Shown here: positions 6,585 to 26,185 of the stretch, in pieces
Numbering within the stretch: position 1 is the stretch's first letter
Layout of the letters: the number at the start of each line of letters is the position of its first letter
Source: Acidobacteriaceae bacterium
Lineage (GTDB): Bacteria > Acidobacteriota > Terriglobia > Terriglobales > Acidobacteriaceae
Reading direction: 5' to 3'
Length of the DNA stretch: 64,000 nucleotides
NCBI GenBank assembly: GCA_003139095.1
Contig: PLHW01000008.1
Location: forward strand, 98,638 to 162,637
The notes under the pieces: model-generated
The model's input: only the letters and a program-made list of their open reading frames with translations
The model's database searches: none
What the model was told of the DNA's origin: nothing
Program-made: the position numbers and the translations under genes

Positions 6585-7058
6585 GACGCGATCCTTTTGC
6601 GCCGCCGCGCTGGGTTGCGGTGCGGGCCGGCGGCGAGACGCTCGATGCTTGGTTTTATCACGTTTTGAGCGGAAGGAACATGCCTGCCCCGGTGGGCGGC
6701 GGGAGAATGACCTGCCCCCTCATCATTCTCCCCGCGCTTCGCTTGGTAGCGGTAACTCGCCACCGGTATCCCCATCAGCCCGCAAACCCGGCGCTCGCTC
6801 GTTGCGTACTCCAACCGCAACCAGTCCGCGTCCGACCGCGAGGGATGCAAAAAACGATGGCGCCCGATTCAGGCGACGGAGACGCAAGTGGTGGGGCCGG
6901 GGAAGCAAGTTCATCTTCCCTGGCGCTGCCCTGGCGCCGCGCGATTTTGCGAAACGGTTCGGACGCGGTAAACTGACTTTTGCAGGTGACGTTTTACAGA
7001 TGATTTCCGTCGTCGGCCGTCAGCAGAAATTTGCTGAACCATTGAAACGGCTCGCTGT
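6585..7058. other. Intergenic with decayed transposase scrap
   Basis: About 470 bases between mmsA and tRNA-Val. Apart from the IS3-like fragment described separately it shows no gene. The tRNA promoter must lie in the last 60 bases. Confidence 0.5.
6716..6817 (-). pseudogene. IS3-family transposase (OrfB) fragment
   Basis: The minus strand encodes LRLEYATSERRVCGLMGIPV followed by ASYRYQAKRGENDE. This strongly resembles the N-terminal segment of IS3-family OrfB proteins (SERRxCxLxGxxxSSYRY). Nothing else of the transposase, no DDE domain and no terminal inverted repeats can be recognised, so this is a decayed relic. The rest of the frame (to 6581) does not look like transposase. Identification rests on one short motif. 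Confidence 0.45.
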
Positions 7059-7135
7059 AGGCGCGTAGCTCAGTTGGTTAGAGCGCTACCTTGACACGGT
7101 AGAGGTCAGGAGTTCGAGTCTCCTCGTGCCTACCA
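7059..7135 (+). tRNA. tRNA-Val (GAC anticodon)
   Basis: 77 bases with the full cloverleaf: acceptor AGGCGCG pairing CGTGCCT, D-stem GCTC/GAGC, anticodon stem CTACC/GGTAG around loop TTGACAC (anticodon GAC), T-arm AGGAG-TTCGAGT-CTCCT, discriminator A and an encoded CCA. It reads GUC and GUU valine codons. Confidence 0.97.
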
Positions 7136-7174
7136 TATTTTCCATAGGGATCCAGAGAATCGCCAAAATTCTCC

Positions 7175-7215
7175 AGCCCGCGCTCAGCCCTTGATTGCGC
7201 GGGCTCGGGCTTTTT
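7175..7215 (+). terminator. Terminator downstream of tRNA-Val
   Basis: AGCCCGCGC (7175-7183) pairs with GCGCGGGCT (7197-7205), followed after CGGGC by TTTTT at 7211-7215. An alternative stem pairs GCCCG with CGGGC directly before the T-run. It lies 40 bases past the tRNA and is probably its terminator. Confidence 0.65.
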
Positions 7216-7502
7216 CAACGCCTCTAGTCAATCGTCTCGAAATTAAAGCCAGCCTATCGGTCACTCCAGCGTTGATCGTTCCCCCAACGGCATTCTGAAA
7301 GCAGAGCGGTGTGTTCTAACGCTGGCCTAAATACGGGCCACGTGGGCGGGGACCCGCCGAAAGCCATTCCTCATCAGCTTGGTAGTTCCGTGAGTCGCGG
7401 CGGAAGGTAGACCAGAGTGCGCGGTGAGGTACGCCTCAAATTTGCTTGACACCGCCGACATTGTTAGAAACGGGATTTTGCGACAGTGGCGAGGGGTTAA
7501 GC

Positions 7503-7644
7503 AAAAAAGACCAGCGCGAGTTTCGAGAGAGATTCGATGCGCTGGTCTGTTGTGCCACGACTCTAAGGACTATTGATGGTAACTAGTTTCCATATCGGCT
7601 AATGGGCGGTCTGTTCAAAATTGCTCACCATCAAAGAAAATGCG
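7503..7644 (-). ncRNA. Structured repeat / small RNA candidate, copy A
   Basis: Minus-strand element closely related to 40948-41092 (plus). Both begin CGCATT-Y-TCTT, then share the identical GTGAGCAATTTTGAACAGAC (here 7609-7628). A middle block GGAAACTAGTTACCATCAAT corresponds to GGAAACTATTTCCCACCAAC in copy B, followed in both by AGTC. Both end in a strong terminator: GACCAGCGC paired with GCGCTGGTC and then TTTTTT (7503-7508). The terminator stem shows a compensatory change between copies (A-T here, G-C in copy B). Spacing between the 5-prime motif and the hairpin is about 60 bases in both. No promoter is clear. It follows the frameshifted gene at 7673-8126, but copy B has unrelated neighbours, so it is not tied to that gene. 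Confidence 0.6.
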
Positions 7645-7672
7645 TTGGTAGTTGATGCAAATCGGGGATGTT

Positions 7673-8126
7673 TCAGGAGTTGACGAGTCTATGGCGGCTG
7701 CGACCACGCCTGTCGAGACCGACCACTGCGCCGGCCCGGTTCGTCATTTCAGTATCTGGCGGTTCGAATGGGAAGGAATCGCAGAAGCGCAACTGGCCCA
7801 CCGGGACAACTAAAATGCCATGTGGCAGCAGCGGCACTTCATTCAGGGAAAATCGGCCGTTGGTCGCCATGTCTGTCTGGCAGTCCTTGCAAGACAGCCC
7901 GCTTGCGGGCCCTTCTCTCGATATGGTCTTGGTACCAGTCCAAGAGCGTGCACGCTTCACGTATGAGGCAGTCGTACACATGCTCCGGCGTCAGTTGGCT
8001 CGGCGGCAGAGATAGGACGGTACTTATCGGAACGTGATTTGAAATTCTCGTGACCGCCAAGAACGCAATGAGTTCGGCGTCAGACTTCGGTTCCTTCTTC
8101 GCTAGACTGTGGAATGGATGCTCCAT
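7673..8126 (-). pseudogene. Small hypothetical gene, apparently frameshifted
   Basis: From ATG 8126 the frame reads MEHPFHSLAKKEPKSDAELI and on to LTPEHVYDCLIREACTLLDW and YQDHIERR, a plausible helical protein, then loses character before a stop at 7839. Another minus frame reading from about 7920 continues SGLSCKDCQTDMATNGRFSL and GILVVPVGQLRFCDSFPFEP to a stop at 7673. Its CxxC motif and hydrophobic pattern look protein-like. One frameshift near 7900-7925 would join them into a protein of about 150 residues. The family is not recognised. It could be a real frameshift, a sequencing error, or two chance frames. Confidence 0.35.
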
Positions 8127-12893: not shown

Positions 12894-13805
12894 TTAGTGT
12901 CCGGCGTTCAACATCATGAGGGCGAACAACGCGGGCAGGTAGAGGATAGTCGCACGAAGCAGGCGACGGGCGGGCGGTTTGGAGGCTGGGGCGGTGGCTG
13001 GGAGCGGGCTGGCCATTCCCATGGAGTAGCGAAACAACATCGCGCCCAACAGAACCGCTCCCACTAAGTACGCGCGGCCGGCCATTCCCCACGCGACCGG
13101 CAACAGGCTCACGGGAATGAGCGCGGCGGAGTAGGCGAGAATTCGCCAGACGGTGGATTTGCCGTCGGCGTCGACGACCGGCAACATGCGAATTTCACCC
13201 TGCGCGTAGTCTTCGCGATAGAGCCAAGCAATCGAGAGGAAATGCGGGAACTGCCAGACGAACATGATGGCAAAGAGAATTAGAGTTTCGATCTCGATGC
13301 GGCCGCGGACCGCGGTCCATCCGAGCATGACGGGCATGGCTCCGGGAAATGCGCCCACAAACGTACACACGGGCGAAACTTTTTTCAGCGGAGTGTAGGC
13401 CGCCAGATAAACGAGCGCGGTGAGGAAGACGAGCAATCCAGTGAGGGGATTGGCGTAGATCGTCAGATAGACGGAACCGCCGAGGGTGAGCGCCAGGCCG
13501 ACGATCAGGGCATGGGTGCGCGACATGCGGCCCGAAGGCAACGGGCGCGAGGCGGTGCGCCGCATGTGCGCATCGACATTGGCTTCGATCACTTCGTTGA
13601 GCGCGGCGGTGCCGCTGGAGACAAAAGCGATGCCGAGGAGAGCGTGGAAAAGTCCGAGCGACCAGGAAGGTACGCCGGCACGATGCGCGCCGAAGAAGTA
13701 TCCGCACCAGGCAGTGAGCACGATTAAGGTTGTGATACGCGCCTTGGTCAGCTCCGCATAGTCGCGCAGCAAACCCGGCAATGTCCGAGCAGTAATTTGT
13801 GCCAT
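12894..13805 (-). CDS. ctaB: Protoheme IX farnesyltransferase (heme O synthase)
   Basis: About 303 residues, UbiA-type prenyltransferase with several transmembrane segments. The first Asp-rich motif reads NEVIEANVDAHMRRTASRPL, diagnostic for CyoE/CtaB. The N-terminus LRDYAELTKARITTLIVLTA is also typical. It farnesylates heme B to heme O, the first step towards heme A needed by aa3 oxidases, which fits the cox cluster 7 kb away. The start may be ATG 13805 or GTG 13814; spacing to a G-rich stretch slightly favours 13805. CtaA (heme A synthase) is not in the window. Confidence 0.92.
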   Translation of the reverse strand: MAQITARTLPGLLRDYAELTKARITTLIVLTAWCGYFFGAHRAGVPSWSLGLFHALLGIAFVSSGTAALNEVIEANVDAHMRRTASRPLPSGRMSRTHALIVGLALTLGGSVYLTIYANPLTGLLVFLTALVYLAAYTPLKKVSPVCTFVGAFPGAMPVMLGWTAVRGRIEIETLILFAIMFVWQFPHFLSIAWLYREDYAQGEIRMLPVVDADGKSTVWRILAYSAALIPVSLLPVAWGMAGRAYLVGAVLLGAMLFRYSMGMASPLPATAPASKPPARRLLRATILYLPALFALMMLNAGH

Positions 13806-14022
13806 GAACCCCACACCGGCCGATCTCTTCCGTCCTCATTACGGCTTGCTTGAGACCGACAGCCGAATTCTAATCATAACCCGCGGACCGAGTTCCACAA
13901 TCGCAAACAATTCGAACCCGCACGAGGATTGCATTCGTATCGCGAGATCGGTGCTGCTGTCAAGATAAAACTCCAATGCCGCGGAAAACCTGCCCTGTTC
14001 AAAGTGGAGATAGACTGCCCGG

Positions 14023-15345
14023 CTAACGTGCTCCGGTGGTTGCGCTCGATACGGTAAAGGTTTCGGGCGGATCGAAATAGCACTGATGCCAGAGCGCGGC
14101 ATCGGTCAGCGAGCCGGCCTTCCAGCGGCGAATGGTGGGCAGAGTGGCGGCGATCATTCCGCCATCGGCCGAATCAAAAATGAGCACGAGTCCGGACAAA
14201 TCCGGAGACTTGGCGAGCTCGGCGTAGGTCGAGTCGAGCAGCGATTTGGCGAATTGCAGTTTCGCGCTCGGGCCGCCATCCTGCTCGTTTTCTTTGATTT
14301 TTTGCACCGAGATGATTTTTACGCTCTTGCCGCGAAGCGGCGCCCAGTCGCCGGGAAATTGCGCAGTCTCTTCGCGGCTGACCTGAAACAAGTCGGCGGC
14401 GGTGGGGGCGGAGGCCGCGGCGGTGGTCGGAACGTCGGAGATGCCTTCCGGCATCTCAAGCCCGGTGCGCCAGAGCCAGCCGCGCGAGAGGCCGGAAATA
14501 CGGACGTGTACCCAGTCAGCGTTGTAATCGAGCATTTCGAACTCGTCGTGCGCGTCGGCCAGGAAGAGCGTTTTGCCGGCGAGGCTGGGAGAAGCGACGA
14601 CGGGAGTTCCAGATTTGCGGACGGCGACGAGATTTCTCGGGCGGACCTGATTTCTTAACGCTTCCTGCAGGGTCGCGGTCTCGGCCTCGATGGATGCGGC
14701 GGATTTTTCGGGGGATGCAGAAGGGCTGCTTTTGCTTGTGGCCGCGTCTGGGGCCGACAAAGATTTATCGGGCGATGACGAGATGAAGATGTTGCCGCTA
14801 TCCGGCGCGTTCGGCATGGGCGCGGAGATGGTGGGCTCATCGGGCAGAGCCTGTTTAGCGGAAGTCTCGGCGTCACCGGCGCGAGAGTTCGGCGAGGATG
14901 CAGATGCGACATTTCCCGGGTTCGAAAGTTGGTCGGCGAGTCGATCGAGGAAGTCGGCTTCAAGGCGGCCGTTGGAGGTGAGCAACTGGTAGCCGGAATG
15001 AGATACGTCGGGGTCGGCATACCAGGCAGTTACATTGGCGGTCACGCGGACGATCGAGCCTCCGGAAGGCGTGGCGCTCACTTTCGCAGTGCACTGGTAG
15101 AACGCGCGCTGATAGCGGCTCACGGGATGATCGCCCACCAGGACAAAGCCGGCGACGGTGGGCAAATGTCCGCTCATCGACGCGTGCATTTGTTTGAGCG
15201 CCTTTTCGACGGGGGCTTTCGACGCGGAGAAGGTGCGCTCGGTGGGAGCGGTCTGTGCGGCGACGGTAACGACGGAGAAAACCAACGCGGCGTAGAGCGC
15301 GGCTCCGAGTGGCGCTCGCGGGAATCGGCGGCCCGAACGCATCAT
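14023..15345 (-). CDS. Exported SH3-like domain protein
   Basis: 440 residues, second gene of a coupled pair: its ATG overlaps the upstream stop by four bases (ATGA). Layout: signal peptide (residues 1-31, ending VTVAAQ); a region to about 135 with a duplicated VSRYQRAFYQCTAKVSATPS-type beta pattern; a low-complexity Ser/Pro/Ala linker (about 140-235); an SH3-like segment FLADAHDEFEMLDYNADWVH followed by SRGWLWRTGLEMP (about 265-305); and a C-terminal domain of about 120 residues. No enzyme motif is seen. Bacterial SH3 domains often bind cell-wall peptides, so a periplasmic or envelope role is inferred. Family not recognised. Confidence 0.6.
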   Translation of the reverse strand: MMRSGRRFPRAPLGAALYAALVFSVVTVAAQTAPTERTFSASKAPVEKALKQMHASMSGHLPTVAGFVLVGDHPVSRYQRAFYQCTAKVSATPSGGSIVRVTANVTAWYADPDVSHSGYQLLTSNGRLEADFLDRLADQLSNPGNVASASSPNSRAGDAETSAKQALPDEPTISAPMPNAPDSGNIFISSSPDKSLSAPDAATSKSSPSASPEKSAASIEAETATLQEALRNQVRPRNLVAVRKSGTPVVASPSLAGKTLFLADAHDEFEMLDYNADWVHVRISGLSRGWLWRTGLEMPEGISDVPTTAAASAPTAADLFQVSREETAQFPGDWAPLRGKSVKIISVQKIKENEQDGGPSAKLQFAKSLLDSTYAELAKSPDLSGLVLIFDSADGGMIAATLPTIRRWKAGSLTDAALWHQCYFDPPETFTVSSATTGAR

Positions 15346-16316
15346 GGCAAGGGCTCCAGTTCATCGCGGCGAATCCAGCCATGTTCGCCGTCATGGGTTT
15401 CCACGCCGAGCCAGTAGGGCGTCAAGACAACGATCAAAACCTCGGTGCCGGGGTCGAGAGTCTTCAACGTGCTGGCGGTGTGAAAGGGCGCGGACTTGAG
15501 GGGCGCGCCGGGCTTTTTGACGAGGCGTTCCACATCTCTGCGGAGCCGCGCGAGGCGTTGCTCGGGCGTTTCGTTGGGATCGATCGGCTCCGCCAGCTTC
15601 GCGGATGAAGAGCGATCGGCGAGAGCGTCGGGGCGGCTGGAACTTTCCAAACTGGACGATGGCGGAGTGCTCAAGAGTTCGGTGCCGTTATTCAGATCGA
15701 ACTCTTTCTTGGCGATGTGTTCCGCTTTTTCCTTCTCCGCGTCGGCGGTTTCTTTCTTTATGAGTTCCATCTGCGAGAGATGGTCCTGAATATCTTTGTA
15801 CTCGCTGGATTCGACGGAACCGTTGGATTGGTGAACGGTGCGGCGGAAGTCCTCGACGTAAAGGGCGTCAATGCGGAGAATGGAATTATTTTCGCCCTGG
15901 GGTTGTAGGACATAGCGAACGGCGATGGTGCCAACATCGGCGCTGTCTTTGAAGTTCCAGGGATTGAGGACGGCCTTGCGAATTTTATAGAAAACCTTGC
16001 CCGGCTCTTTCGACGGGGGAAACAGGGGAGTGGATGAGGCGGCGAACGCTCCGCTGACGTATTCGTCTTTGGCGTACTCCCTGGTGCCGCGAATGATGCC
16101 GTTGCCGGCGACGTCTTGAACGGCCTCGGAGACCTCGGCGATGGGAGCCGGGATGTTGATGATGAGCCCATCCCCGTAATGTGCAATATTTTTCGCGCGC
16201 GCCTGGGGGGAAATCACCACCAGGATGAAGAGGGAAATTAGCGCATGGCGGCGAAGGATGAGGGCTCGGCGTCCCTTGCTCTGGCGCTCTCCCGGCGACT
16301 GCACGTCTGACTGCAT
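15342..16316 (-). CDS. Exported protein with C-terminal SH3-like domain
   Basis: About 324 residues from ATG 16316, which has GGAG four bases upstream; the frame is open to 16361. The basic N-terminus and hydrophobic stretch (ALISLFILVVISPQARA) form a signal peptide. The mature N-terminal domain reads KNIAHYGDGLIINIPAPIAE. A charged coiled-coil-like stretch (KKETADAEKEKAEHIAKKEF) is followed by a Ser-rich linker. The last 45 residues (DPGTEVLIVVLTPYWLGVET, HGWIRRDELEPLP) form an SH3-like fold resembling the one in its downstream partner. The four-base overlap with that gene implies translational coupling and joint function. Function unknown. Confidence 0.6.
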   Translation of the reverse strand: MQSDVQSPGERQSKGRRALILRRHALISLFILVVISPQARAKNIAHYGDGLIINIPAPIAEVSEAVQDVAGNGIIRGTREYAKDEYVSGAFAASSTPLFPPSKEPGKVFYKIRKAVLNPWNFKDSADVGTIAVRYVLQPQGENNSILRIDALYVEDFRRTVHQSNGSVESSEYKDIQDHLSQMELIKKETADAEKEKAEHIAKKEFDLNNGTELLSTPPSSSLESSSRPDALADRSSSAKLAEPIDPNETPEQRLARLRRDVERLVKKPGAPLKSAPFHTASTLKTLDPGTEVLIVVLTPYWLGVETHDGEHGWIRRDELEPLP

Positions 16317-16404
16317 GGGCTCCCGATCCAAGAGTCTGATACGAAGAAGGCCTGCTGTCAACCTCGATGGCTGTTTCCGCCGCGTTGCCGCCCGGCGATT
16401 GAGG

Positions 16405-16636: not shown

Positions 16637-18094
16637 ATGCGTATGTGGGCGCAGTCTCTTCTCTGCCGTAAGGTGCGGCTGGTTCCATCGTTCGGCGCCG
16701 CCCTTGCGTTGGTTTTTCTAATCCTTGCCAGCAGTCAACCGGCGCACGCCATTCCGGCTTTCGCCAGAAAGTATGGCCTGCGCTGTTCGGCCTGTCATGA
16801 AAGCTGGCCCATGCTGAATTTCTTTGGCCAGAAGTTCAAGGACAACGGCTACCAGTTGATGAACGACCGGGATTCGCCCATCTGGCAGAATCCCAGTTAC
16901 TGGCCGGCTACGATGCGCATGACGCCGATCTGGCACCGGGTGAGCACGAACCGGAACCAGGTCGATGTTTACACGGGCGACACGGTAACGGGCACCACCG
17001 AAGCCAAGATCACATCTTCGGGCTTTGACCTGAGCGGCCTCGATTTCCACACGGCCGGCACGCTGGAAAAGAACTTCTCTTTCTACTTACTTCCATCGTC
17101 GGACCCAACCGGCGCCTTCCATTTTGAGAGCGTGTTCGCCCGCGTCGATAACATCGGCAATAATCCGTGGCTCAACGTTAAGTTCGGCAAGTTCGAACTC
17201 GACAACCTGCTCTCGGAGAAGCGCATTTTAACCTTGACCGCGAATGGCGGGATTTACCAGCTCTATCACTTCATCCCGGCGGGAGATAACAACATCTTCG
17301 GCCAGATAGGAGACAACCAACTCGGCGCGGAGTGGATGGGACACTCGGCCAACGACCGGACGAGAATCTCGGCCGCATTGCTGAGTTCGAATGACGGGTC
17401 GGTCCTCCTGCCTTATGGCTCGGAATCGTATTCCGCATTTTTCGCGGCCAGTCAGGCTTTTGACTTTGGCAAACTCGGCGTCTCGCGCTTTGGTGGATAC
17501 GCGATGGTCGGCGAGGCGCCTACGCAGTGGCTTACAAACGGCGGATCGGGCGCGCCAATCCCGGGCTCGGGAACGGGCAACAAAGGCTATCACCGGGAAG
17601 GTTTTGTTGGTCAGATCTACTTTGGAGAACATGCTGACGTAACCGTGGTCACGCAGCATGGCTGGGATAGTGCGTGGTTCGGCCAGGGATATGGCGACTT
17701 TGTGGATAATCCAACGGCGACCTGCGCGAATTCAACCGGCTTCCCGGCTCCCTGCAACAACCTGCCCGGCACTTCGCTGGCGCCCGGCTCGCGCGCGCCC
17801 ACCTGGAACGGCGTGCTGGTTGAGCCGCATTACGTCGTGAACCCGCAATGGATCCTGCTAACACGTTACGAAACGATTCGCATGTCGCAGCAGTCCACAC
17901 CGGGAACGCCAAGCGATCTGGGTAACGTCACGACTTACACGCTGGGCACGCGCATCAACCCATTCATGAACAACCGCGCGGGTTTTGCTTATCACGCGGA
18001 ATATAACTGGTTCCATCAGGATGGGACATCACCAGTTACAGGCAGTAACTTGACGAGCAGTGAGCTGTTATTTGGGTTTGACTTCGACTTCTAA
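16637..18094 (+). CDS. Outer-membrane porin-cytochrome c fusion (Cyc2-like)
   Basis: 485 residues from ATG 16637, chosen because GAGGAG lies six bases upstream; the frame is open back to 16448. A signal peptide ends at QPAHA (about 38). The mature N-terminus IPAFARKYGLRCSACHESWP carries a single c-type heme motif, Cys50-x-x-Cys53-His54. The remaining 400 or so residues alternate polar and hydrophobic residues, rich in Gly, Asn, Tyr and Trp, and end in LLFGFDFDF with a C-terminal Phe, the signature of outer-membrane barrels. Single-heme domain plus barrel is the Cyc2-type fused cytochrome-porin layout that moves electrons across the outer membrane in Fe(II) oxidisers. It heads a cluster with diheme c, cupredoxin and oxidase. 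Electron donor not known. Confidence 0.75.
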   Translation: MRMWAQSLLCRKVRLVPSFGAALALVFLILASSQPAHAIPAFARKYGLRCSACHESWPMLNFFGQKFKDNGYQLMNDRDSPIWQNPSYWPATMRMTPIWHRVSTNRNQVDVYTGDTVTGTTEAKITSSGFDLSGLDFHTAGTLEKNFSFYLLPSSDPTGAFHFESVFARVDNIGNNPWLNVKFGKFELDNLLSEKRILTLTANGGIYQLYHFIPAGDNNIFGQIGDNQLGAEWMGHSANDRTRISAALLSSNDGSVLLPYGSESYSAFFAASQAFDFGKLGVSRFGGYAMVGEAPTQWLTNGGSGAPIPGSGTGNKGYHREGFVGQIYFGEHADVTVVTQHGWDSAWFGQGYGDFVDNPTATCANSTGFPAPCNNLPGTSLAPGSRAPTWNGVLVEPHYVVNPQWILLTRYETIRMSQQSTPGTPSDLGNVTTYTLGTRINPFMNNRAGFAYHAEYNWFHQDGTSPVTGSNLTSSELLFGFDFDF

Positions 18095-18107
18095 AGAGAG
18101 GGAAACG

Positions 18108-18989
18108 ATGAACTCGCGACTACCACAAATGACTTATGCCGCGGTGATTGCCGGCGTGTTTGCTTTTCCCGCTCTGGCGCAAGCGCAGATAACCGAGTAC
18201 CAGCAGGATCAGTGGCTGCATACCGCAGCCATCACCAGCCACGTCGGGAATGTGACCGGAGACGGAAGCGGCGCAGAGGAACGCTACCGGCGGTATTGCC
18301 AGGTCTGTCACGGAAAGATGGGCGACGGGAATGGCGAGAGCGCGCAGTGGTTCGAACCCCCGTTGTACCCGAAGCCGCGCGACTTCACGCTAGGCGTCTT
18401 TAAGTGCCGCTCGACTCCGACGGGCACGCTGCCCACAGACGAAGATCTCTACAACACGATCGGGCGCGGGATGGATCGCTCGAACATGCCGCCCTGGAAT
18501 ACGTTCTCGGAGCAGACTCGAGCGGACCTAGTGGCGTGGATTAAACATTACTCGCCGCGCTGGCAGACCGAGAAAGCGGGCCCGCCGATCGAGATTCCGG
18601 CCGAACCCGAAGTAACCGCCGAACGTGTGAAAGCCGGGCAGGAAGTGTACTCGCGCGTGCAGTGCTGGAAATGTCATGGCGTGACGGGCAACGCGAACGG
18701 GCCATCCGCCTCGACGCTCACCGACGATCCGGGACATCCGATCCTGCCCTATAACTTCCACGAGGGTCGGCCGAAGTGCGGCAACAGCGACACCGAACTC
18801 TACAAGATTTTTATGACCGGCCTGGATGGCACTCCCATGCCGTCGTTTTCCGATAACATCAAACCGGATGAGGCGTGGGATCTGGTGTTCTTCCTGCGCA
18901 CGCTCCAGTCGTATCCGTCCAAGGCGAAAGAAATTGCCGAACAGCTCCATCTGAAGCCCCTCAATCCAGATGGGTCGCTCCCCAAATGA
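18108..18989 (+). CDS. Periplasmic diheme cytochrome c
   Basis: 293 residues from ATG 18108 (AGAGAGGG upstream; 13 bases after the porin-cytochrome gene). Signal peptide ends PALAQAQ. Two class-I cytochrome c domains: CQVCH (Cys64, Cys67, His68) with likely axial Met127 in RSNMPPW, and CWKCH (Cys186, Cys189, His190) with likely axial Met244 in GTPMPSF. The position matches Cyc1 (c4-type) in the Acidithiobacillus rus operon, so it probably carries electrons from the outer-membrane cytochrome towards the oxidase. Spacing suggests one transcript with the gene before and after. Confidence 0.88.
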   Translation: MNSRLPQMTYAAVIAGVFAFPALAQAQITEYQQDQWLHTAAITSHVGNVTGDGSGAEERYRRYCQVCHGKMGDGNGESAQWFEPPLYPKPRDFTLGVFKCRSTPTGTLPTDEDLYNTIGRGMDRSNMPPWNTFSEQTRADLVAWIKHYSPRWQTEKAGPPIEIPAEPEVTAERVKAGQEVYSRVQCWKCHGVTGNANGPSASTLTDDPGHPILPYNFHEGRPKCGNSDTELYKIFMTGLDGTPMPSFSDNIKPDEAWDLVFFLRTLQSYPSKAKEIAEQLHLKPLNPDGSLPK

Positions 18990-19022
18990 GGCCCTAGCAA
19001 AAATAGAAGGAGAATTTTGAAA

Positions 19023-19772
19023 ATGAAGCATGGGTACAAGAAAAGCTTTGGAATCGTATTGGCAGTGGTTGTCGCCGCCCTGGTAGTCACGGTCGTCGAT
19101 CAGCGGGTAAAGGCCGCCGGCGAAGGATCGATCACGGGCTCAGTGAAACTCAACGGAACGGCGCCGCACATGAAGGGCATCGATATGTCGAAGGACCCGT
19201 ACTGTGCGCAACAGCACACGAGCAGCCCGGCGACATTGGAGAACGTGGTCGTCGGCGCCAACGGCGGACTGCACAACGTTGTTCTGTACATTTCCGAAGG
19301 GTTGAGCGCAACGGCGGCGAGCGCAGTGCCGTCGGATGAGCCGAGCTTCGATCAAAAAGGCTGTATGTACACGCCGCACGTCATGGCCGTCGACGCGAAT
19401 CAGAAATTCAAAGTCACGACCAGCGACCAGACGACACATAACATCCATCCGCTGCCGGCCGCCACCAGCGGCAACATCGGCTGGAACAAGTCGCAGCCGC
19501 CGGGAGCTCCGCCGATCGAAAACAGTTGGAAGAACCAGGAGATCGCGATTCCGGTAAAGTGCAACATCCATCCGTGGATGCACGGCTGGCACGTGGTGGT
19601 GAAAGGCCCGTACGCGGTCACCGACGACAACGGCAATTTCACCATCAAGAATGTGCCGGCGGGCTCTTACACGGTTACGGCCTGGCAGGAAGATCTGGGA
19701 ACGCAGACGGCCAAAGTTACAGTCGCCGGCGGCCAGGCAGCAAAGGCAGACTTTACGTTTAAAGCGAAGTAG
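19023..19772 (+). CDS. Exported cupredoxin-like / carboxypeptidase-regulatory-like protein
   Basis: 249 residues from ATG 19023; a TTG at 19017 is an alternative, with AAGGAG upstream of both. N-terminal signal or anchor (SFGIVLAVVVAALVVTVV). Possible type-1 copper ligands: His139 (TTHNIHP), Cys180, His183 and Met186 (VKCNIHPWMHGW), the C-x2-H-x2-M spacing of plastocyanin-like proteins. The last 60 residues (AVTDDNGNFTIKNVPAGSYT) form a carboxypeptidase-regulatory-like beta sandwich. It sits where a soluble carrier such as rusticyanin would be expected, between diheme cytochrome c and oxidase. Copper binding is inferred from motif only. Confidence 0.7.
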   Translation: MKHGYKKSFGIVLAVVVAALVVTVVDQRVKAAGEGSITGSVKLNGTAPHMKGIDMSKDPYCAQQHTSSPATLENVVVGANGGLHNVVLYISEGLSATAASAVPSDEPSFDQKGCMYTPHVMAVDANQKFKVTTSDQTTHNIHPLPAATSGNIGWNKSQPPGAPPIENSWKNQEIAIPVKCNIHPWMHGWHVVVKGPYAVTDDNGNFTIKNVPAGSYTVTAWQEDLGTQTAKVTVAGGQAAKADFTFKAK

Positions 19773-19785
19773 CAAGCCGATCTCT

Positions 19786-19817
19786 GGGCGGCGGTGTTGA
19801 ACAACCGCCGCCCTTTT
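19786..19817 (+). terminator. Strong terminator inside the respiratory cluster
   Basis: GGGCGGCGGT (19786-19795) pairs perfectly with ACCGCCGCCC (19804-19813) around an eight-base loop, followed by TTTT. It lies 14 bases after the cupredoxin-like gene and before the STAS fusion, so the electron-carrier genes and oxidase genes are at least partly separate transcripts. Confidence 0.75.
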
Positions 19818-19829
19818 AGCGGGGACCCA

Positions 19830-20681
19830 ATGGACACTGCAATCGGAGTATTTTCCGCACGCGATCGTGCCGAGGAAGCGGTTAAGGAACTACGCAAGAA
19901 AGGTGTACCGGAAGATTCGATCGTCTATCTCACTCGTTCTGAGGGTGAAGCGAAGACGATTGCCAAACAATTCGGCGCGACGGTCGGCGGATTTTTGGGC
20001 GGTGCAACCGGCATGTCAGCCGGAGTGGTTGCTGCGACACTGCTTCTCCCCGGCGTCGGACCGGTTTTTGCTTTGGGCTTCGGCGCTGCCGCGCTGCTCG
20101 GACTGGCGGGAGCAGGAGCAGGAGCCGGCGTCGGTTCGTGGGCCGCACACGATGCGGAAGCTCCGCAGCCTGCCACGGAGACCAGCGCCGAGGATGCCAA
20201 CTTTTTCCGCGAGGTCCTCAAGGAAGGGCGCTCTTTGATTGTGGTTCGAACCGATTCGAAGGAGATTGCCAATGCGGCATGCGCGATTCTCGACCGCCTT
20301 GGGATCGGAATACAGGGAAAAACCCCGGTCGCAATGCAAACGACGTCGAAACAGGTGGGCGACGTAACTGTATTGGACGTCAGCGGGCGGATCACGCTGG
20401 GCGAAGGCAATGTGATGCTCCGCGAAATTGTCCGCGAGTTGGCCGACAAAGGACAGACCCGAATCGTTCTCAACCTTGGCGACGTGCACTACATTGACAG
20501 CTCCGGGCTGGGGGAGTTGGTCAAAACGCATACGACCATTCACAACAAGGGGGGCGAACTGAAGCTGGCCAACCTCAACAAGAGGGTTCACGACCTGCTC
20601 CAGATGACAAGACTGGCGGCCATTTTCGACATCCAGGCAGACGAGGCCAGTGCCGTCAAGTCATTTCGCCGCCGGGCTTAA
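19830..20681 (+). CDS. General-stress (YflT-like) domain fused to STAS domain
   Basis: 283 residues from ATG 19830; the frame is open to 19794. Residues 1-55 (MDTAIGVFSARDRAEEAVKE) resemble the general-stress/heat-induced YflT-type domain. A Gly/Ala-rich double hydrophobic hairpin (about 50-105, GGATGMSAGVVAATLLLPGV) looks like a glycine zipper or membrane-inserting segment. A linker leads to a STAS domain (about 168-283) with VTVLDVSGRITLGEG and the phospho-acceptor region HYIDSSGLGELVK (Ser224/225). STAS proteins act as anti-sigma-factor antagonists, switched by serine phosphorylation. The combination and its place before coxB hint at stress control of respiration, which is inference. Confidence 0.7.
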   Translation: MDTAIGVFSARDRAEEAVKELRKKGVPEDSIVYLTRSEGEAKTIAKQFGATVGGFLGGATGMSAGVVAATLLLPGVGPVFALGFGAAALLGLAGAGAGAGVGSWAAHDAEAPQPATETSAEDANFFREVLKEGRSLIVVRTDSKEIANAACAILDRLGIGIQGKTPVAMQTTSKQVGDVTVLDVSGRITLGEGNVMLREIVRELADKGQTRIVLNLGDVHYIDSSGLGELVKTHTTIHNKGGELKLANLNKRVHDLLQMTRLAAIFDIQADEASAVKSFRRRA

Positions 20682-20799
20682 CTGCGAGCTCTCGCTTGAG
20701 TGAGCGCAGGGTCGAGCTCTATCGAAGAAAGCGCAATTGACACAGTAGTTCGGTAATCGGTTCGAATTTCAAACTACGGCTTTTCGTACGCGAGGACAA

Positions 20800-21603
20800 A
20801 TGGCGAAATTGTTGGCTATCACTTTGATCGTCATCGCGATTGTTTCTGCGATCCCCATTCTGCGGCACACCTGGTGGATGCCGGAAGATATTTCGACACA
20901 CGGGCACGCCATTGACGAACAGATGTCGGAGACGATGGCGGAGGCTGGCATCTCGTTCCTTGCCTCCCAGTTTCTGCTGGCCCTCTTCATCTGGCAGTAC
21001 GCCCGCCCCAGGCCGGGAGAGAAGATCAAGAAGTTTCCGGGCGGAGCGATGGGCCTGGTGATTGCCGCGTTTCTGCTGGTCGGAACCGAAGTGCTGGCGC
21101 TCGGCGTGTTTGGAATGAAGGCTTGGGCCAACGTCTACCTCGCTCCACCCGCGGCCGACGCGCTGCCCGTCCAGGTGCAGGCCGGCCAGTTCGCGTTCTA
21201 CTTCCGCTATCCCGGGCCGGACGGGACATTCGGGCCCCTTCATCCCGACCAGATCAACGAAGGCAACGAAAACTTTTTCGGACTCGACACGGCCCACGAT
21301 CCGGACTCGAAAGACGACATTGTTACGGCCGAGATGGCAATTCCCGTCAACCGCGAGATTCATCTGCTGATGCACTCGAAAGACGTGGGGCACTCGTTCT
21401 TTGTGCCGCAACTGCGCGTGCAGCAGGATTTTGTTCCCGGGCTGGATTTGTCGCTGCACTTCACGGCCGCGAAGACGGGCCGTTACGAAATCGTATGTAC
21501 GCAGTTGTGCGGGCTGGGGCACTACAACATGAAGGCGTATTTGACTGTGATGTCCCAGGCTGAGTTCGACGACTGGCTGAAGAAGCAGGCAGCACTTCAG
21601 TAG
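20800..21603 (+). CDS. coxB: Cytochrome c oxidase subunit II
   Basis: 267 residues. Transmembrane helices at about 4-22, 50-68 and 84-106 precede the periplasmic cupredoxin domain. CuA ligands are all present: His198 (DVGHSFFVPQ), Cys233, Cys237, His241 and Met244 (VCTQLCGLGHYNM). The usual CSELCG Glu is Gln235 here; that residue binds CuA through its backbone and Mg through its side chain in model oxidases. No c-heme domain is fused, so it takes electrons from separate carriers. First structural gene of the oxidase set, GAGGAC-type ribosome site. Confidence 0.93.
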   Translation: MAKLLAITLIVIAIVSAIPILRHTWWMPEDISTHGHAIDEQMSETMAEAGISFLASQFLLALFIWQYARPRPGEKIKKFPGGAMGLVIAAFLLVGTEVLALGVFGMKAWANVYLAPPAADALPVQVQAGQFAFYFRYPGPDGTFGPLHPDQINEGNENFFGLDTAHDPDSKDDIVTAEMAIPVNREIHLLMHSKDVGHSFFVPQLRVQQDFVPGLDLSLHFTAAKTGRYEIVCTQLCGLGHYNMKAYLTVMSQAEFDDWLKKQAALQ

Positions 21604-21656
21604 GCGGTAGACGCCCGTTTCGTCTTGCACGCAAGAAATTTTTTTGAGGTGACCCG

Positions 21657-23441
21657 ATGCACGATATGTCAGCGCAGGCACATGCCGCACATCATGCTCC
21701 GACCGGTTTTATTCGGAAGTATGTCTTCAGCCTCGATCACAAGGTGATTGGAAAGCAGTACTACGGACTGGCTTTCTTCGCGGCCATTATCGGCATGATC
21801 CTTTCCTGGATTATGCGCGTGCATCTGGGTTGGACAAACTTCGCGATTCCGGGCCTGCACCTGCTTTCGAAGAACGGCGCGCCCGGCGACATTCTGACGC
21901 CGGAGTATTACCTGCAACTGATGACCATGCACGGAACCATCATGGTCTTCTTCGTGCTGACAACCGCGCCCTTCGCGGCGTTTGGTAACTTCTTTCTGCC
22001 GATTCAAGTGGGCGCCGAAGACATGCCCTTCCCGCGCTTCAACATGATGTCGTTCTGGGTCACGTTCGTATCGTTCCTCGTGATGATCGCGGCATTCTTC
22101 GTCGGCGATGGGCCGAGTCTGGCGGGCTGGACGCAGTATGCTCCGCTCAGCGCCGTCGGTCCCGCGGCGGGACCCGGCCAAGGCATGGGAGAAGTCCTCT
22201 GGGCCTCCTCGATCGCGATTTTCTGCGTGGGCCAATTGCTGGGCTCATTGAACTTCATCACCACCACGCTCGACATGCGCACGCAGGGCATGAGTTTGTG
22301 GCGCATGCCGCTCACGACCTGGGCGTGGTTCATCACGTCGGTGATGGGCCTGACGGCCTTCGCGGTGCTGATGCCAGCTTGCATCCTGCTTGTTCTCGAT
22401 CACGTGGCCGGAACCAGCTTTTTCGTTCCGTCGAATCTGGTCATCAACGATCAACTCCAGCCGCATTCCGGCGGATCGACTCTGTTGTGGCAACATCTCT
22501 TTTGGTTCTTCGGCCATCCCGAGGTGTACATCGCCATCGTGCCCGCCATGGGCATCGTTTCTCACATCCTGATGGCCAACATCCGCCGGCCTCTTCTCAG
22601 CCACCGCGCGCTGATCTACTCCATGGGGGCGATTGCCGTCCTCAGCTACATGGTCTATGGCCATCACATGTTTGTCAGCGGGATGAATCCGATCTCGTCG
22701 ATTGCGTTTTCTTTCCCAACTCTGGTCATCACGATTCCCGCAACCATCATCGTGCTGATCTGGCTGGGCAGCCTTTACGGGTCGAAGATTCGGCTCAACT
22801 CCGCCTGCCTGTTTTCGCTGGGCATGATTTCGATGTTCATCAGCGGCGGCGTCAGCGGATTTTTCCTGGCGCAGCCTTCGCTCGACATCATGCTGCACGC
22901 GACCTATTTCGTTGTCGGCCACTTCCACTTCGTCATGGCCGTAGCAGCCATGTTCGGTATTTTTGCCGGAACTTACTTCTGGTTCCCTAAGATGTATGGC
23001 CGAATGATGAACGAAACCCTGGGCAAGATCCATTTCATCCTCACGTTCATCGGCGCCTATTGCATCTTCATGCCGTTCCATTACCTCGGAATGGCGGGTA
23101 ACGTGCGCCGCTACCAGGCATTCACTGACGATTATCTCCAGCCGCTGATTCCGGTTCACCGCTTCATCACGATCGCGGCTGTGGCGACGGGCGCAGTGCA
23201 GGCTATCTTCCTCTATAACTTCATTCACAGCCGGTTCTGGGGCAAACCTGCACCGGAGAATCCGTGGGAAGCAACTTCGCTGGAGTGGTCCACCACCTCG
23301 CCGCCGCCGTTCGATAACTTCGGCGGAAAGCTGCCGGTCGTCTATCACGATCCTTATCAATACGGCGTTGAAGGGCCGGCGGGCGATTACGTGATGCAGA
23401 CCGATCCCACGCAAATTCAGTTGGAGAGTGACGAAGCATAA
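21657..23441 (+). CDS. coxA: Heme-copper oxidase subunit I (aa3-type)
   Basis: 594 residues, 12 helices. Heme and CuB ligands: His92 (MTMHGTIM), His287 (FFGHPEVY), His336/His337 (GHHMF), His422 and His424 (VGHFHFV). The Tyr291 cross-link position and D-channel elements Asp122, Asn129 and Glu289 (HPEV) are kept, placing it in type A1. The K-channel block reads ITIPATIIVLIW, so by alignment Thr and Lys of the usual PTGIKVF are Ala362 and Ile365. It reduces O2 to water at the inner membrane. GAGGT upstream of ATG; 53 bases after coxB. C-terminal tail is long and soluble. Confidence 0.93.
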   Translation: MHDMSAQAHAAHHAPTGFIRKYVFSLDHKVIGKQYYGLAFFAAIIGMILSWIMRVHLGWTNFAIPGLHLLSKNGAPGDILTPEYYLQLMTMHGTIMVFFVLTTAPFAAFGNFFLPIQVGAEDMPFPRFNMMSFWVTFVSFLVMIAAFFVGDGPSLAGWTQYAPLSAVGPAAGPGQGMGEVLWASSIAIFCVGQLLGSLNFITTTLDMRTQGMSLWRMPLTTWAWFITSVMGLTAFAVLMPACILLVLDHVAGTSFFVPSNLVINDQLQPHSGGSTLLWQHLFWFFGHPEVYIAIVPAMGIVSHILMANIRRPLLSHRALIYSMGAIAVLSYMVYGHHMFVSGMNPISSIAFSFPTLVITIPATIIVLIWLGSLYGSKIRLNSACLFSLGMISMFISGGVSGFFLAQPSLDIMLHATYFVVGHFHFVMAVAAMFGIFAGTYFWFPKMYGRMMNETLGKIHFILTFIGAYCIFMPFHYLGMAGNVRRYQAFTDDYLQPLIPVHRFITIAAVATGAVQAIFLYNFIHSRFWGKPAPENPWEATSLEWSTTSPPPFDNFGGKLPVVYHDPYQYGVEGPAGDYVMQTDPTQIQLESDEA

Positions 23442-23529
23442 CAACGAAGCATGACTGGCTAGTTACAACTGGCTAGTCCTAACCGGCTTGTCCTAACAAA
23501 GACTTGTAAGCGAAAGTTGGAGTATCGAA

Positions 23530-24210
23530 ATGGCAACCACAATTCATCCGCCGGCAACTCCGGGCATTGACGACCGATCGCGCCTGAAAGCGACGTCGGG
23601 AAACGGCGGCGGACGCTGCCTTGTGCCGGAAGGCGGAACACTGCGCGGGGTGCGGGATTACGCGCCGCCTCCGTCCTCGACTGCGATATGGGTGTTTGTC
23701 GGCGCCGTGTGCATGACCTTCGCTGCGCTGACCAGCGCGCTCGTGGTTCGCAAAGGCGGAGCGCTCGACTGGCAGCACTTTACGCTGCCGTCCATCCTTT
23801 ATCTCAACACGGTCGTGCTGCTCGCCAGCAGTGTGACGATTGAAATCGCGCGCCGCCGTGTAGCTACTTTCATGACGGGCGGGCGCGAGGCAGCATCGCA
23901 CCCCGCGCGCTGGCTCTACATAACTCTCATACTGGGCCTGGTGTTCTTAGCTGGCCAGTACGTTGCGTGGCGGCAGTTATACGCGCAGGGGCTGTACCTT
24001 GCAACCTTCCCCAGCAGTTCTTTCTTTTATGTATTCACAGCGGCGCACGCGTTGCACTTGTTTGGCGGCCTGGTCGGCATGGCGCGAGTAATTCGCAAGC
24101 TCAAGCTGCATGTTCTGCGCCGCAGCACACTGGATGCGACCGTGCGCTACTGGCATTTTATGGACGTGCTTTGGATTTACCTGCTTATTTTGCTGTGGGC
24201 AAAACTCTGA
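23530..24210 (+). CDS. coxC: Heme-copper oxidase subunit III (first copy)
   Basis: 226 residues. After a 45-residue polar N-terminus come five helices: IWVFVGAVCMTFAALTSALV, LPSILYLNTVVLLASSVTIE, WLYITLILGLVFLAGQYVAW, YVFTAAHALHLFGGLVGMAR and FMDVLWIYLLILLWAKL. The HALH and WHFMDVLW patterns are typical of CtaE/CoxC. It stabilises the catalytic core and proton uptake. An 88-base gap from coxA contains small CTGGCTAGT repeats; the gap to the next gene is 18 bases. Five rather than seven helices is usual for short bacterial forms. Confidence 0.88.
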   Translation: MATTIHPPATPGIDDRSRLKATSGNGGGRCLVPEGGTLRGVRDYAPPPSSTAIWVFVGAVCMTFAALTSALVVRKGGALDWQHFTLPSILYLNTVVLLASSVTIEIARRRVATFMTGGREAASHPARWLYITLILGLVFLAGQYVAWRQLYAQGLYLATFPSSSFFYVFTAAHALHLFGGLVGMARVIRKLKLHVLRRSTLDATVRYWHFMDVLWIYLLILLWAKL

Positions 24211-24228
24211 TCGATCCGAGGAGGCTCC

Positions 24229-24858
24229 GTGAGCCAAGCCGATTTGACCATGTCACACCCTGCACACCCGCCCGGAATGACCATTGGACTCGCGCCGTTT
24301 TCCGTCTCGGCAAATAAGATGGCGATCTGGCTTTTCATCATCGCCGATGCCGCCACCTTTGCGGCCTGCCTCGTGGCCTATGGGTTCCTGCGCAATGGCA
24401 CCGCCAATTGGCCGCGCCCATTCCATAGCATCGTAAATGTTTCGGTGATGACATTCATCCTTCTTACCAGCAGCCTGACCATGTTACTGGGCGTGCGGGC
24501 GGCGAAGGCGGGAGATAAATCGGGCGCATTCCGTTGGACGATGATCACGGCCGTGATGGGCATTCTTTTCGCCGCGTTGCACATCCGCGAGTGGATGGGC
24601 CTGATTGACGAAGGTATGTCGATGTTTCACAACCCTTGGGGGACGGGGCTTTTCGGCGCATCGTTCTTCAGCATTACCGGCCTGCACCTTTTGCACGTAA
24701 CGGGCGGCGTAGTCGCGCTACTCGCGGTTGGATTTCGCTACATGGGCGGCCGCTATGACGCCGATGACCTGGAAGTAACTGGACTTTACTGGCACTTTGT
24801 CGATCTGGTTTGGATGTTCGTCGTTCCATTCGTCTATCTATTGAACCTCGCTCATTAG
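24229..24858 (+). CDS. Heme-copper oxidase subunit III-like (second copy)
   Basis: 209 residues from GTG 24229, supported by GAGGAGG five bases upstream. Helices include MAIWLFIIADAATFAACLVA, a helix near MTFILLTSSLTMLLGVRAAK, and a GLHLLHVTGGVVALLAVGFR segment, ending YWHFVDLVWMFVVPFVYLLN. HLLHVTGG and YWHFVDLVW are subunit III (CoxC/CyoC) hallmarks. Having two subunit-III genes in a row suggests either a heteromeric subunit III or an added role for one of them. Clearly not an exact duplication: the two proteins share pattern rather than sequence. Confidence 0.85.
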   Translation: MSQADLTMSHPAHPPGMTIGLAPFSVSANKMAIWLFIIADAATFAACLVAYGFLRNGTANWPRPFHSIVNVSVMTFILLTSSLTMLLGVRAAKAGDKSGAFRWTMITAVMGILFAALHIREWMGLIDEGMSMFHNPWGTGLFGASFFSITGLHLLHVTGGVVALLAVGFRYMGGRYDADDLEVTGLYWHFVDLVWMFVVPFVYLLNLAH

Positions 24859-24880
24859 AAGCCGGGAGGGAGTAAATACT

Positions 24881-25231
24881 ATGGCCAACGCACACGATGT
24901 GCAAAAGCACGAACCGCACGAACCGCTTGGACGCTATCTGCTGATCTACGTCTGCATTCTGATTCTGGCGGCGGCGCAGTTCTTCATCGCCTTCACGCAC
25001 ATCGATGCGGAAGCAATGTTTGCCCGCATGCTGTTTGTTGCGATCGCCGAGGCGATCCTCGCGCTGTTGTTCTTCATGCACTTATGGGCGGAGAAGCGCG
25101 GCTTTCTCCTGTTCGTCGTGGTGTTCACGGGGTTTGTCATACTGGTCATGCAATTTGGCTGGACAGACAGTCATCGAATGGAAGCTGGCGCACCTTACTC
25201 GCAGTCTAAGAGCGGGACGGTCGCACCGTGA
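24881..25231 (+). CDS. Cytochrome c oxidase subunit IV (prokaryotic CoxD/CyoD-like)
   Basis: 116 residues with three hydrophobic helices (YLLIYVCILILAAAQFFIAF, ARMLFVAIAEAILALLFFMH, FLLFVVVFTGFVILVMQFGW). The middle segment EAILALLFFMHL is characteristic of prokaryotic oxidase subunit IV. It helps assembly or stability of the CuB site in relatives. GGGAGG lies upstream. It overlaps the next gene by four bases (GTGA). Confidence 0.82.
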   Translation: MANAHDVQKHEPHEPLGRYLLIYVCILILAAAQFFIAFTHIDAEAMFARMLFVAIAEAILALLFFMHLWAEKRGFLLFVVVFTGFVILVMQFGWTDSHRMEAGAPYSQSKSGTVAP

Positions 25232-25530
25232 AACTTCTGCCGACAGATACACACACAGACCATCGCGGCCCATGGAAGCGTGGAACACTGGTGCTCGCGA
25301 GCCTGATGGTGCTGGCAAACCCGCTCACCGCTTCCGCCCAAGGTTGCGCCCTGTGCTACACGCAAGCCGCCTCCGCGGGCCAGAAGATGATCGAAGCCCT
25401 GCGCAGCGGGATTTTGATCATGATCATCCCTCCCACTCTGGCAATGATCGCCCTCCTGTTCGTCATCCACCATAAGCGCAATCAGGTGCGCGGCGCGGAG
25501 GACGGCGAGGGATCGAATCTGGGCTGGTAA
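25228..25530 (+). CDS. Small membrane protein with CxxC motif, oxidase-linked
   Basis: 100 residues from GTG 25228, overlapping the subunit IV stop. A signal peptide or helix (WKRGTLVLASLMVLANPLTA) leads to SAQGCALCYTQAASAGQKMI with a CALC pair just after the predicted cleavage site, then one transmembrane helix (GILIMIIPPTLAMIALLFVI) and a basic cytoplasmic tail. No CxxCH heme motif. Tight coupling to the cox genes suggests an assembly or copper/thiol role, but this is inference. Family not recognised by name. Confidence 0.7.
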   Translation: MKLLPTDTHTDHRGPWKRGTLVLASLMVLANPLTASAQGCALCYTQAASAGQKMIEALRSGILIMIIPPTLAMIALLFVIHHKRNQVRGAEDGEGSNLGW

Positions 25531-25708
25531 AAAACCTGGATCCTGCCCCCGGGCCAGCACACGATATATTCCCTCTCAGCGGCGACACGTCCCCGAGGAA
25601 TCCTTCGCGATCGCGCACAACCTGTGGCACACAACCATTTCCCTGTGCGCCGGGTCACAGCACAGTTGCCCGTGACGCCTTCAATATCGGTAGGATGGAG
25701 GCAAAGAC

Positions 25709-26185
25709 ATGCGAGGCAGTGAAAAAGTAATCGAACAATTGAATGTGGCGCTCAGTTCGGAATTAACCGCGTCCGTGCAGTACATGACGCAATCGGAGAT
25801 GTGCCAGAACTGGGGCTATACAAGGCTCGCCGGCCTGACCAAAGTGCGCGCCATCGAAGAGATGCGCCACGCCGAAGGCCTGATCGAGCGCATTATTTTT
25901 CTCGACAGCATTCCCACTGTCGACGTCGGTCTGAAGCCGCAGCTCGGCAGCAAGGTGCAAGAACAGATGGAGATCAATCTCAAGGACGAGGTTGAGGCCG
26001 TCGGTCAGTACAACACGGCCGCGAGGATCTGCATCGAGGCCGGCGACGATGGATCGAAGGCCCTATTCGAGCACATGATTGCGGACGAAGAGCGACACGC
26101 CGACTTCCTCGAGGCCCAACTGCACGCCATCAAGGAAATGGGCATCGCGAATTATCTCGCGCAGCAGATCGGCGAAACGAAGTAG
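25709..26185 (+). CDS. bfr: Bacterioferritin
   Basis: 158 residues, full length. Di-iron ferroxidase ligands: Glu18 (LSSELTAS), Glu51 and His54 (IEEMRHAEG), Glu94 (DEVEAVGQY), Glu127 and His130 (ADEERHADF). The heme-ligand Met52 (EEMRHAE) is present, so heme-binding bacterioferritin rather than plain ferritin. 24-mers oxidise and store iron in the cytoplasm. GGAGG is seven bases upstream. It follows the oxidase cluster with a 178-base gap of its own, so it probably has its own promoter, but the location fits an iron-linked respiratory region. Confidence 0.95.
   Translation: MRGSEKVIEQLNVALSSELTASVQYMTQSEMCQNWGYTRLAGLTKVRAIEEMRHAEGLIERIIFLDSIPTVDVGLKPQLGSKVQEQMEINLKDEVEAVGQYNTAARICIEAGDDGSKALFEHMIADEERHADFLEAQLHAIKEMGIANYLAQQIGETK

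Follow-up and report, generated by a model that had tools for sequence, protein, structure and literature searches.

Whether an acidobacterium can pass electrons from its surface to oxygen by way of a single gene cluster is the question raised by positions 16637-25530 of the DNA analysed here, a 64,000-nucleotide stretch (the window) of an Acidobacteriaceae genome (assembly GCA_003139095.1, contig PLHW01000008.1, positions 98,638 to 162,637). The genome comprises 5.53 Mb in 75 contigs and has an estimated completeness of 98%. The cluster is a single co-directional run, with all genes on the plus strand, and consists of a porin, a diheme cytochrome c, a copper protein, a STAS gene, coxB-coxA-coxC-coxC-coxD and a small CxxC membrane protein. 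A first-pass annotation had likened this order to that of the rus operon of Acidithiobacillus ferrooxidans and had proposed an analogous path from an extracellular donor to an aa3-type oxidase. The genes which it named are all present, in frame and in that order, as judged from open reading frames and from Pfam and NCBIfam; only the STAS gene between the copper protein and coxB had gone unlisted. The cluster is real and conserved; it is an oxidase-linked representative of the Cyc2 systems in uncultivated acidobacteria and, judging from its sequence and from structural models, most likely carries surface electrons to O2.

The porin-cytochrome, its carriers and the oxidase

Cyc2 proteins are characterised by the motif AXPXFAR[Q/K][T/Y] before CXXCH, with PXL four residues after it; the first of these motifs is termed Cyc2-only (PMC8406198; statements on the literature, here and below, rest on excerpts of the papers cited). 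The window porin reads AIPAFARKY-GLR-CSACH-ESW-PML, matching this consensus. It has a single CXXCH with PXL, a length of 485 residues where at least 365 are required, and a fused β-barrel porin according to its structural model. A scan of one genome per species yielded 39 porin loci, and 34 of these were aligned with the window (alignment A1; L053, L056, L069, L070 and L071 were left out). The Cyc2-only motif is present in 33 of the 35 aligned porins, L062 and L063 each departing from it at one position, and F42, A43, R44, K45, Y46, C50, S51, A52, C53, H54, P58 and L60 are invariant throughout.

An AlphaFold2 model of the porin, made with 35 sequences, has a mean predicted local distance difference test score (pLDDT) of 70.6 and shows 18 strand elements from residue 92 onwards. 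Its best solved structure in Foldseek is OprP (E 2.5e-12). In VIA-align, where the rows cover residues 83-485 and the heme domain lies outside the comparison, all 50 rows are porins (Z 21.5-24.2, 2.9-3.8 Å), the first being PorB 3a2s (Z 24.2, 3.4 Å over 306 residues). OprO and OprP are the published structural neighbours of the Mariprofundus Cyc2 (PMC8406198), while PorB is that of Leptospirillum Cyc572 (PMC10654088). No Pfam or NCBIfam family matched the window porin, and a sequence search of the PDB gave no match up to E 1. A search of plasmids returned 5 short N-terminal matches, three of which (L072-L074) were used as outside rows. With the published motif and a modelled barrel, the window porin is assigned to the Cyc2 kind, in agreement with the first-pass annotation.

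In the diheme cytochrome, both CxxCH motifs, M128 and M245 are invariant in 22 sequences (alignment A3: the window and 21 of 38 locus genes), which makes the two methionines candidate axial ligands. The best solved relative of this protein is PDB 6h5l chain B (E 1.4e-71 over about 213 residues), titled ‘conserved hypothetical cytochrome protein’ and presumably part of the Kuenenia HAO-like complex. By comparison 1h1o, which we take to be Acidithiobacillus Cyc1, of the cytochrome c4 kind, matches at E 0.14 over 40 residues only. In the copper protein, H141, C182, H185 and M188 are invariant in 26 sequences (alignment A2: the window and 25 of 32 locus genes); we assume these to be the type-1 copper ligand set. 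Its AlphaFold2 model (pLDDT 87.7) has a plastocyanin/amicyanin-like fold, with VIA-align Z scores of about 10-11 and a Foldseek match to amicyanin at E 8.8e-5. Foldseek gave amicyanin 1id2 a TM score of 0.29/0.65 at probability 1.00 and AcoP 7z3g one of 0.15/0.25 at probability 0.54; AcoP is absent among the VIA-align matches listed, an absence to which no weight is given.

The assignments of the diheme cytochrome, CoxB, CoxA, both COX3 proteins and subunit IV are backed by Pfam or NCBIfam. The oxidase is of the CuA type, having a COX1-family subunit I and CuA ligands in subunit II. The pattern GHSF..C-x3-C-x3-H-x2-M occurs in 20 of 25 CoxB sequences and in 4 more with GHAF, DHAF or SHSF in place of GHSF, and L070 reads as frameshifted; by pattern and by eye the CuA set is thus found in 24 of 25, and CxxCH in 0 of 25. 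With its CuA set, CoxB would be expected to receive electrons from a cytochrome or a cupredoxin. In CoxA, GHPEVY and the D-channel Asp are kept, and the position of the K-channel Lys is Asn or Thr in all 22 aligned members (the window and 21 relatives). The same position is Lys in one and Gln in the other of two further aligned oxidases of the window genome. The roles of these residues in the D- and K-channels are assumed from general knowledge. Besides the window, the alignment took in the 21 loci whose coxA is complete and three further oxidases; the fourth COX1 of the genome (on contig C63) stood outside it because it gave no BLAST match. A CtaA match is present in the genome.

Conservation of the cluster

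Among the 39 loci, coxA lies on the strand of the porin and starts within 3.8 kb downstream of it in 21 of the 27 that have at least 5 kb of downstream DNA. The diheme gene comes after the porin in 32 of 33 loci, its match starting about 150 bases or less from the porin end where this was scored; in the remaining one, L066, the match overlaps the porin end. A cupredoxin is found in 29 of 30 loci, L066 again being the exception. Of 61 near genomes, 29 carry a porin that is full-length or nearly so (in one, a contig end truncates it), and in 24 of these 29 a COX1 gene lies 0-7 kb further downstream on the porin strand. The contigs of the other five (G004, G006, G011, G021 and G032) continue for no more than 3.0 kb downstream, as judged from coordinates and, in G011 and G032, from a reading of the sequence too; in G032 and G021 (the latter as L035) the start of coxB is still on the contig. 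Porin identity among the relatives, which occur in many genomes, is 46-78%, and chance is excluded because the cluster is kept at this identity over so many genomes. The coupling to an oxidase proposed in the first-pass annotation is therefore conserved in many, though not all, relatives, and the neighbours of the porin are far from being always unrelated to oxidases.

Strong relatives of the porin are rare in the phylum as a whole (present at E 1e-60 in 6 of the 396 genomes sampled). A porin tree was built from 51 rows, of which 16 were unlabelled; long branches were flagged, and for L035 and L044 the sole basis of the label is a cut-off coxB. On this tree the ‘cox’ label needs 2 changes, against a mean of 10.2 when labels are shuffled, and the porins linked to bc-type genes form one group (95/97). 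The porin loci L065 and L068 are near-identical and come from metagenome-assembled genomes (MAGs) labelled Acidobacteria and Verrucomicrobia; one of the two labels is probably a binning error.

Conservation extends upstream of the run, beyond the limits first drawn around it, to two divergent genes on the minus strand (Table 1). The one nearer to the porin is found upstream of it, on the opposite strand, in 30 of 39 loci, and the second recurs alongside the first. In L103, relatives of both sit between the diheme gene and the cupredoxin. Downstream, the small protein with the CxLCYTQAA stretch occurs in 18 of the 24 loci with at least 8 kb of DNA after the porin, the remaining 6 being loci without coxA; it is perhaps an oxidase assembly factor. 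The STAS gene recurs in 2 of the same 24 loci (L039 and L071) and in G011, which is of the same genus (L107), and was accordingly rejected as a fixed member of the unit. The bacterioferritin gene after the cluster had earlier been taken as consistent with a link to iron. A bacterioferritin match was found at E 1e-6 in 0 of 71 loci, 24 of which extend 8 kb or more past the porin; the gene is not conserved beside the cluster and therefore lies outside the unit and is no evidence for iron, so this clue is withdrawn. Promoter patterns (5, against 3.8 in shuffled sequence) and terminators (16, against 10.4 with a standard deviation of 3.1) were uninformative.

Table 1. Features of the porin-oxidase run and its surroundings (positions within the window)
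Feature	Position	Strand	Remarks
CtaB-like heme O synthase (UbiA family), upstream	12894..13814	-	Pfam UbiA 2e-48
Second divergent conserved protein	14023..15345	-	no Pfam family
Divergent conserved protein	15342..16361	-	no Pfam family (tested as 15342-16313)
Cyc2-family porin-cytochrome, 485 aa	16637..18094	+	signal peptide, N-terminal heme c site CSACH, predicted barrel ~83-485
Periplasmic diheme cytochrome c	18108..18989	+	Pfam Cytochrome_CBB3 + Cytochrom_C (scan read from 18105, one codon ahead of ATG); 2 CxxCH, 2 conserved Met
Periplasmic type-1-like copper protein	19017..19772	+	cupredoxin domain ~104-196 inside CarboxypepD_reg/transthyretin-like domain
STAS-domain protein, YflT-like N-terminal part, optional gene	19794..20681	+	Pfam STAS 1.3e-17, YflT 0.0098 (weak)
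CoxB, cytochrome c oxidase subunit II	20800..21603	+	Pfam COX2; CuA ligand set, without heme c
CoxA, heme-copper oxidase subunit I	21657..23441	+	Pfam COX1 9.6e-124; CtaD_CoxA 3.7e-159, below its cut-off
CoxC, subunit III, first copy	23530..24210	+	Pfam COX3 1.1e-12
CoxC-like, subunit III, second copy	24229..24858	+	Pfam COX3 8e-13
CoxD, subunit IV	24881..25231	+	COX4_pro 28.6 bits vs Pfam cut-off 28.9; NCBIfam caa3_sub_IV 7.2e-6, below cut-off
Small membrane protein with CxLCYTQAA stretch	25228..25530	+	no Pfam/NCBIfam family above cut-off
Bacterioferritin after cluster	25709-26185		PF00210

Relation to the rus operon and to other Cyc2 systems

The order of the rus operon is given as cyc2-cyc1-cup-coxBACD, where ‘cup’ denotes a copper protein (PMC10654088), which is even closer to the window than the version on which the first-pass annotation relied. 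Both run from a porin-cytochrome through a diheme cytochrome and a copper protein to coxB, coxA, coxC and coxD, and in 7 of 24 loci a ctaB gene was scored further downstream. The window differs in having one additional gene before coxB, a second coxC and the small CxxC gene. The parts differ as well: the diheme protein resembles 6h5l, unlike 1h1o, and the copper domain sits inside a CarboxypepD_reg-like domain and scores nearer to amicyanin than to AcoP. No rusticyanin was found by Pfam and NCBIfam among the genes of 16637-26185 (the bacterioferritin was searched by Pfam only), which was the part of the genome searched for it. Membership of the rus operon by descent was rejected, as neither likeness to Cyc1 nor a rusticyanin was found.

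The cluster thus has a rus-like layout, and one or more of its parts are unrelated to their rus counterparts. Assembly independent of the rus operon, which the first-pass annotation had raised as a possibility, appears likely from a diheme protein that is not Cyc1-like and a copper protein that is predicted to lie nearer to amicyanin. It is the diheme protein that bears this out; the copper protein is placed nearer to amicyanin and plastocyanin by the fold search, which leaves AcoP open.

The window porin also resembles Leptospirillum Cyc572, of Cyc2 cluster 3, in its single N-terminal heme, its consensus motif and the presence of PorB among its structural neighbours. In Leptospirillum, however, the genes are reported to be unclustered and the path to end at cbb3, whereas in the window they stand in line with those of an aa3-type oxidase; Cyc572 reportedly descends from a cluster that includes acidobacterial homologues (PMC10654088). 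Cyc2 homologues have been described in Acidobacteriota MAGs (PMC9671151, as cluster 3; PMC11312239; PMC8446621). These reports, in the excerpts concerned, give their presence without a link to an oxidase, and the window porin is likened to them by description. A search of open-access titles and abstract openings, a scope outside which subscription papers and preprints fall, found no porin-to-oxidase operon in Acidobacteriota. The first-pass annotation knew of no such complete set in the group; Cyc2 homologues are known from the phylum, and a conserved oxidase-linked operon containing one may be new.

Related sets are found beside a second kind of oxygen reductase. In G333, which belongs to another class, one strand of L101 (12055 down to 5800) holds a cupredoxin, a porin, a diheme cytochrome, a ccoN-like gene and a ccoO/ccoP-like fusion, the scores for ccoN and ccoO lying below the NCBI cut-offs. 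Identities to the window proteins are 34% for the cupredoxin, 31% for the porin, which bears the motif, and 48% for the diheme cytochrome. As the window oxidase is aa3-type and that of G333 is cbb3-like, related sets adjoin two kinds of oxygen reductase.

The window genome itself holds a second, distant Cyc2-like porin on contig C28 (244000-260000, L075), at 6216-7778 of that locus on the minus strand, which reads AIPAFSRQY and is one residue off the motif. It is followed by a related cupredoxin (37%) and a flavoprotein region broken by an unread base, and further genes there read as a Rieske protein, a cytochrome b and a hexaheme cytochrome. This layout is repeated in G009, G036 and G058 (L076, L083 and L084), Pfam having been run on the genes of G009. 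Across 149 sampled genomes, a cupredoxin lies within 6 kb of at least 20 of 54 places matching the porin profile, where a rough calculation assuming uniform spacing would predict 0.26; in this phylum, then, Cyc2-like porins often have the copper protein as a partner. In L086 (7598-15495, G043), a distant porin (FSRQT..CSTCH) is followed by genes which, read by eye, are like those of alternative complex III.

Direction of flow and nature of the donor

The best explanation of the run is an inward conduit. An outer-membrane porin-cytochrome of the Cyc2 family would accept electrons one at a time, via its one heme, from a surface donor, which is most likely Fe(II) in solution. These would pass to the periplasmic diheme cytochrome, the copper protein or both, and the carriers would hand them on, at CuA, to an aa3-type oxidase dedicated to this path, for the reduction of O2. 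The outer-membrane location, the inward direction, the order of the carriers and the presence of heme A in the oxidase are predicted parts of this scheme. An inward conduit to O2, whatever its extracellular donor, is judged likely; the whole scheme, with Fe(II) as the probable donor, is held with somewhat less assurance yet still favoured, while the balance is even on whether Fe(II) is the main physiological donor. A search of the genome for the RuBisCO large subunit gave nothing at E 0.001, so the pathway more likely supplements heterotrophy than supports growth by the Calvin cycle. At the same threshold the genome contains no conduit of the MtrB/PioB type.

Several observations weigh against the inward conduit. 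Six of the 27 loci have no neighbouring oxidase (L037, L061, L064, L065, L066 and L068), and they nevertheless keep the porin and the diheme gene, five of them the cupredoxin too. There is likewise no oxidase near L102 (G226; porin and diheme gene) or L103 (G131; all three, with the cupredoxin further off). Conversely, G005 (L108, contig C88) and G009 (L092, contig C31) hold oxidases related to that of the window, at 63% CoxA identity, with no porin beside them. Distant porins with motif-like heme ends and other neighbours are common in the phylum (39 of 149 genomes with a profile match at 1e-6), and no match to the window cox genes was found around those of L077, L085, L086, L093, L094 and L104. 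In the model of the window porin, the heme domain (residues 32-89) has a pLDDT below 50, and for this reason no heme pocket was seen. Finally, Acidobacteriota Cyc2 proteins are put in cluster 3 (PMC9671151), whose function is termed most uncertain (PMC8406198), a caution repeated in a 2026 study of cave MAGs (PMC13264449).

The alternative that survives best keeps the inward conduit to O2 and replaces iron with another natural donor, such as reduced humics or phenolics, Mn(II), Cu(I) or another cell. It is in keeping with the names of related isolates, which include bog, palsa and soil-like ones, with the uncertain function of cluster 3 (PMC8406198) and with the lack of a conserved bacterioferritin link. 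Against it, the three Cyc2 proteins tested biochemically, one per cluster, all oxidise Fe(II) (PMC8406198). Such a donor is considered possible, at a level clearly below that given to Fe(II).

Much less probable is a porin module which works outwards, exporting electrons for the reduction of Fe(III) or humics, with the oxidase adjacent for shared regulation only. Iron reduction has been reported for some acidobacteria (PMC8790237), and the distant Cyc2-like porin of this genome and its relatives, with its cupredoxin, GltD-like flavoprotein, Rieske protein, cytochrome b and multiheme cytochrome, could run in that direction. The window run, by contrast, contains no quinol-oxidising gene. Four COX1 genes were detected in the genome at E 1e-20 or below. 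Of the three outside the window run, one adjoins ActD/NrfD of alternative complex III, another a cytochrome b, and the last a Rieske protein and cytochrome b with a FixO-like subunit; the window run is without ActD/NrfD, cytochrome b or Rieske genes and has the porin set in their place. The pairing of related sets with two types of oxygen reductase also speaks against an outward module.

An equally improbable reading makes the diheme cytochrome and the cupredoxin standard periplasmic electron sources for an aa3 oxidase that depends on a complex III encoded elsewhere, with the porin active in metal uptake or detoxification and its heme put to another use. In its favour, the L108 oxidase has a cupredoxin and no porin (in G005, which carries the full cluster as well), and porin and diheme gene do occur without a nearby oxidase. 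Against it, in the 61 near genomes COX1 follows every full-length porin whose contig runs on for more than 3.0 kb (24 of 24), the diheme gene lies close behind the porin, and the other oxidases of the genome carry quinol modules of their own.

The inward conduit can be placed in a wider and distinctly tentative scheme, in which Acidobacteriota would possess a modular Cyc2 platform. A pair of porin-cytochrome and copper protein would be joined to an aa3-type oxidase, to a cbb3-type oxidase or to Rieske/cytochrome b with a GltD-like flavoprotein. The window porin, leading to O2, and the C28 porin, leading to a bc-type complex, would jointly give a bifurcated oxidation of extracellular electrons, for energy and for reducing power. 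The result would parallel the rus and pet operons of Acidithiobacillus by convergence, in a lineage not known to oxidise iron.

A conserved operon of porin, carriers and oxidase suggests both the direction of the electrons and their acceptor. Cyc2 homologues have been reported from many soils and sediments, and the status of those of cluster 3 as iron oxidases is uncertain (PMC8406198); the porin-carrier-oxidase set makes this question testable with defined proteins. The paper naming Ca. Sulfotelmatobacter, in the excerpt concerned, describes seven MAGs without genes for dissimilatory iron metabolism bar one putative metal reductase (PMC6018796). If the inward conduit is true, heterotrophic acidobacteria of soil and peat would gain energy from electrons at their surface, and this would change the attribution of iron oxidation in these environments.

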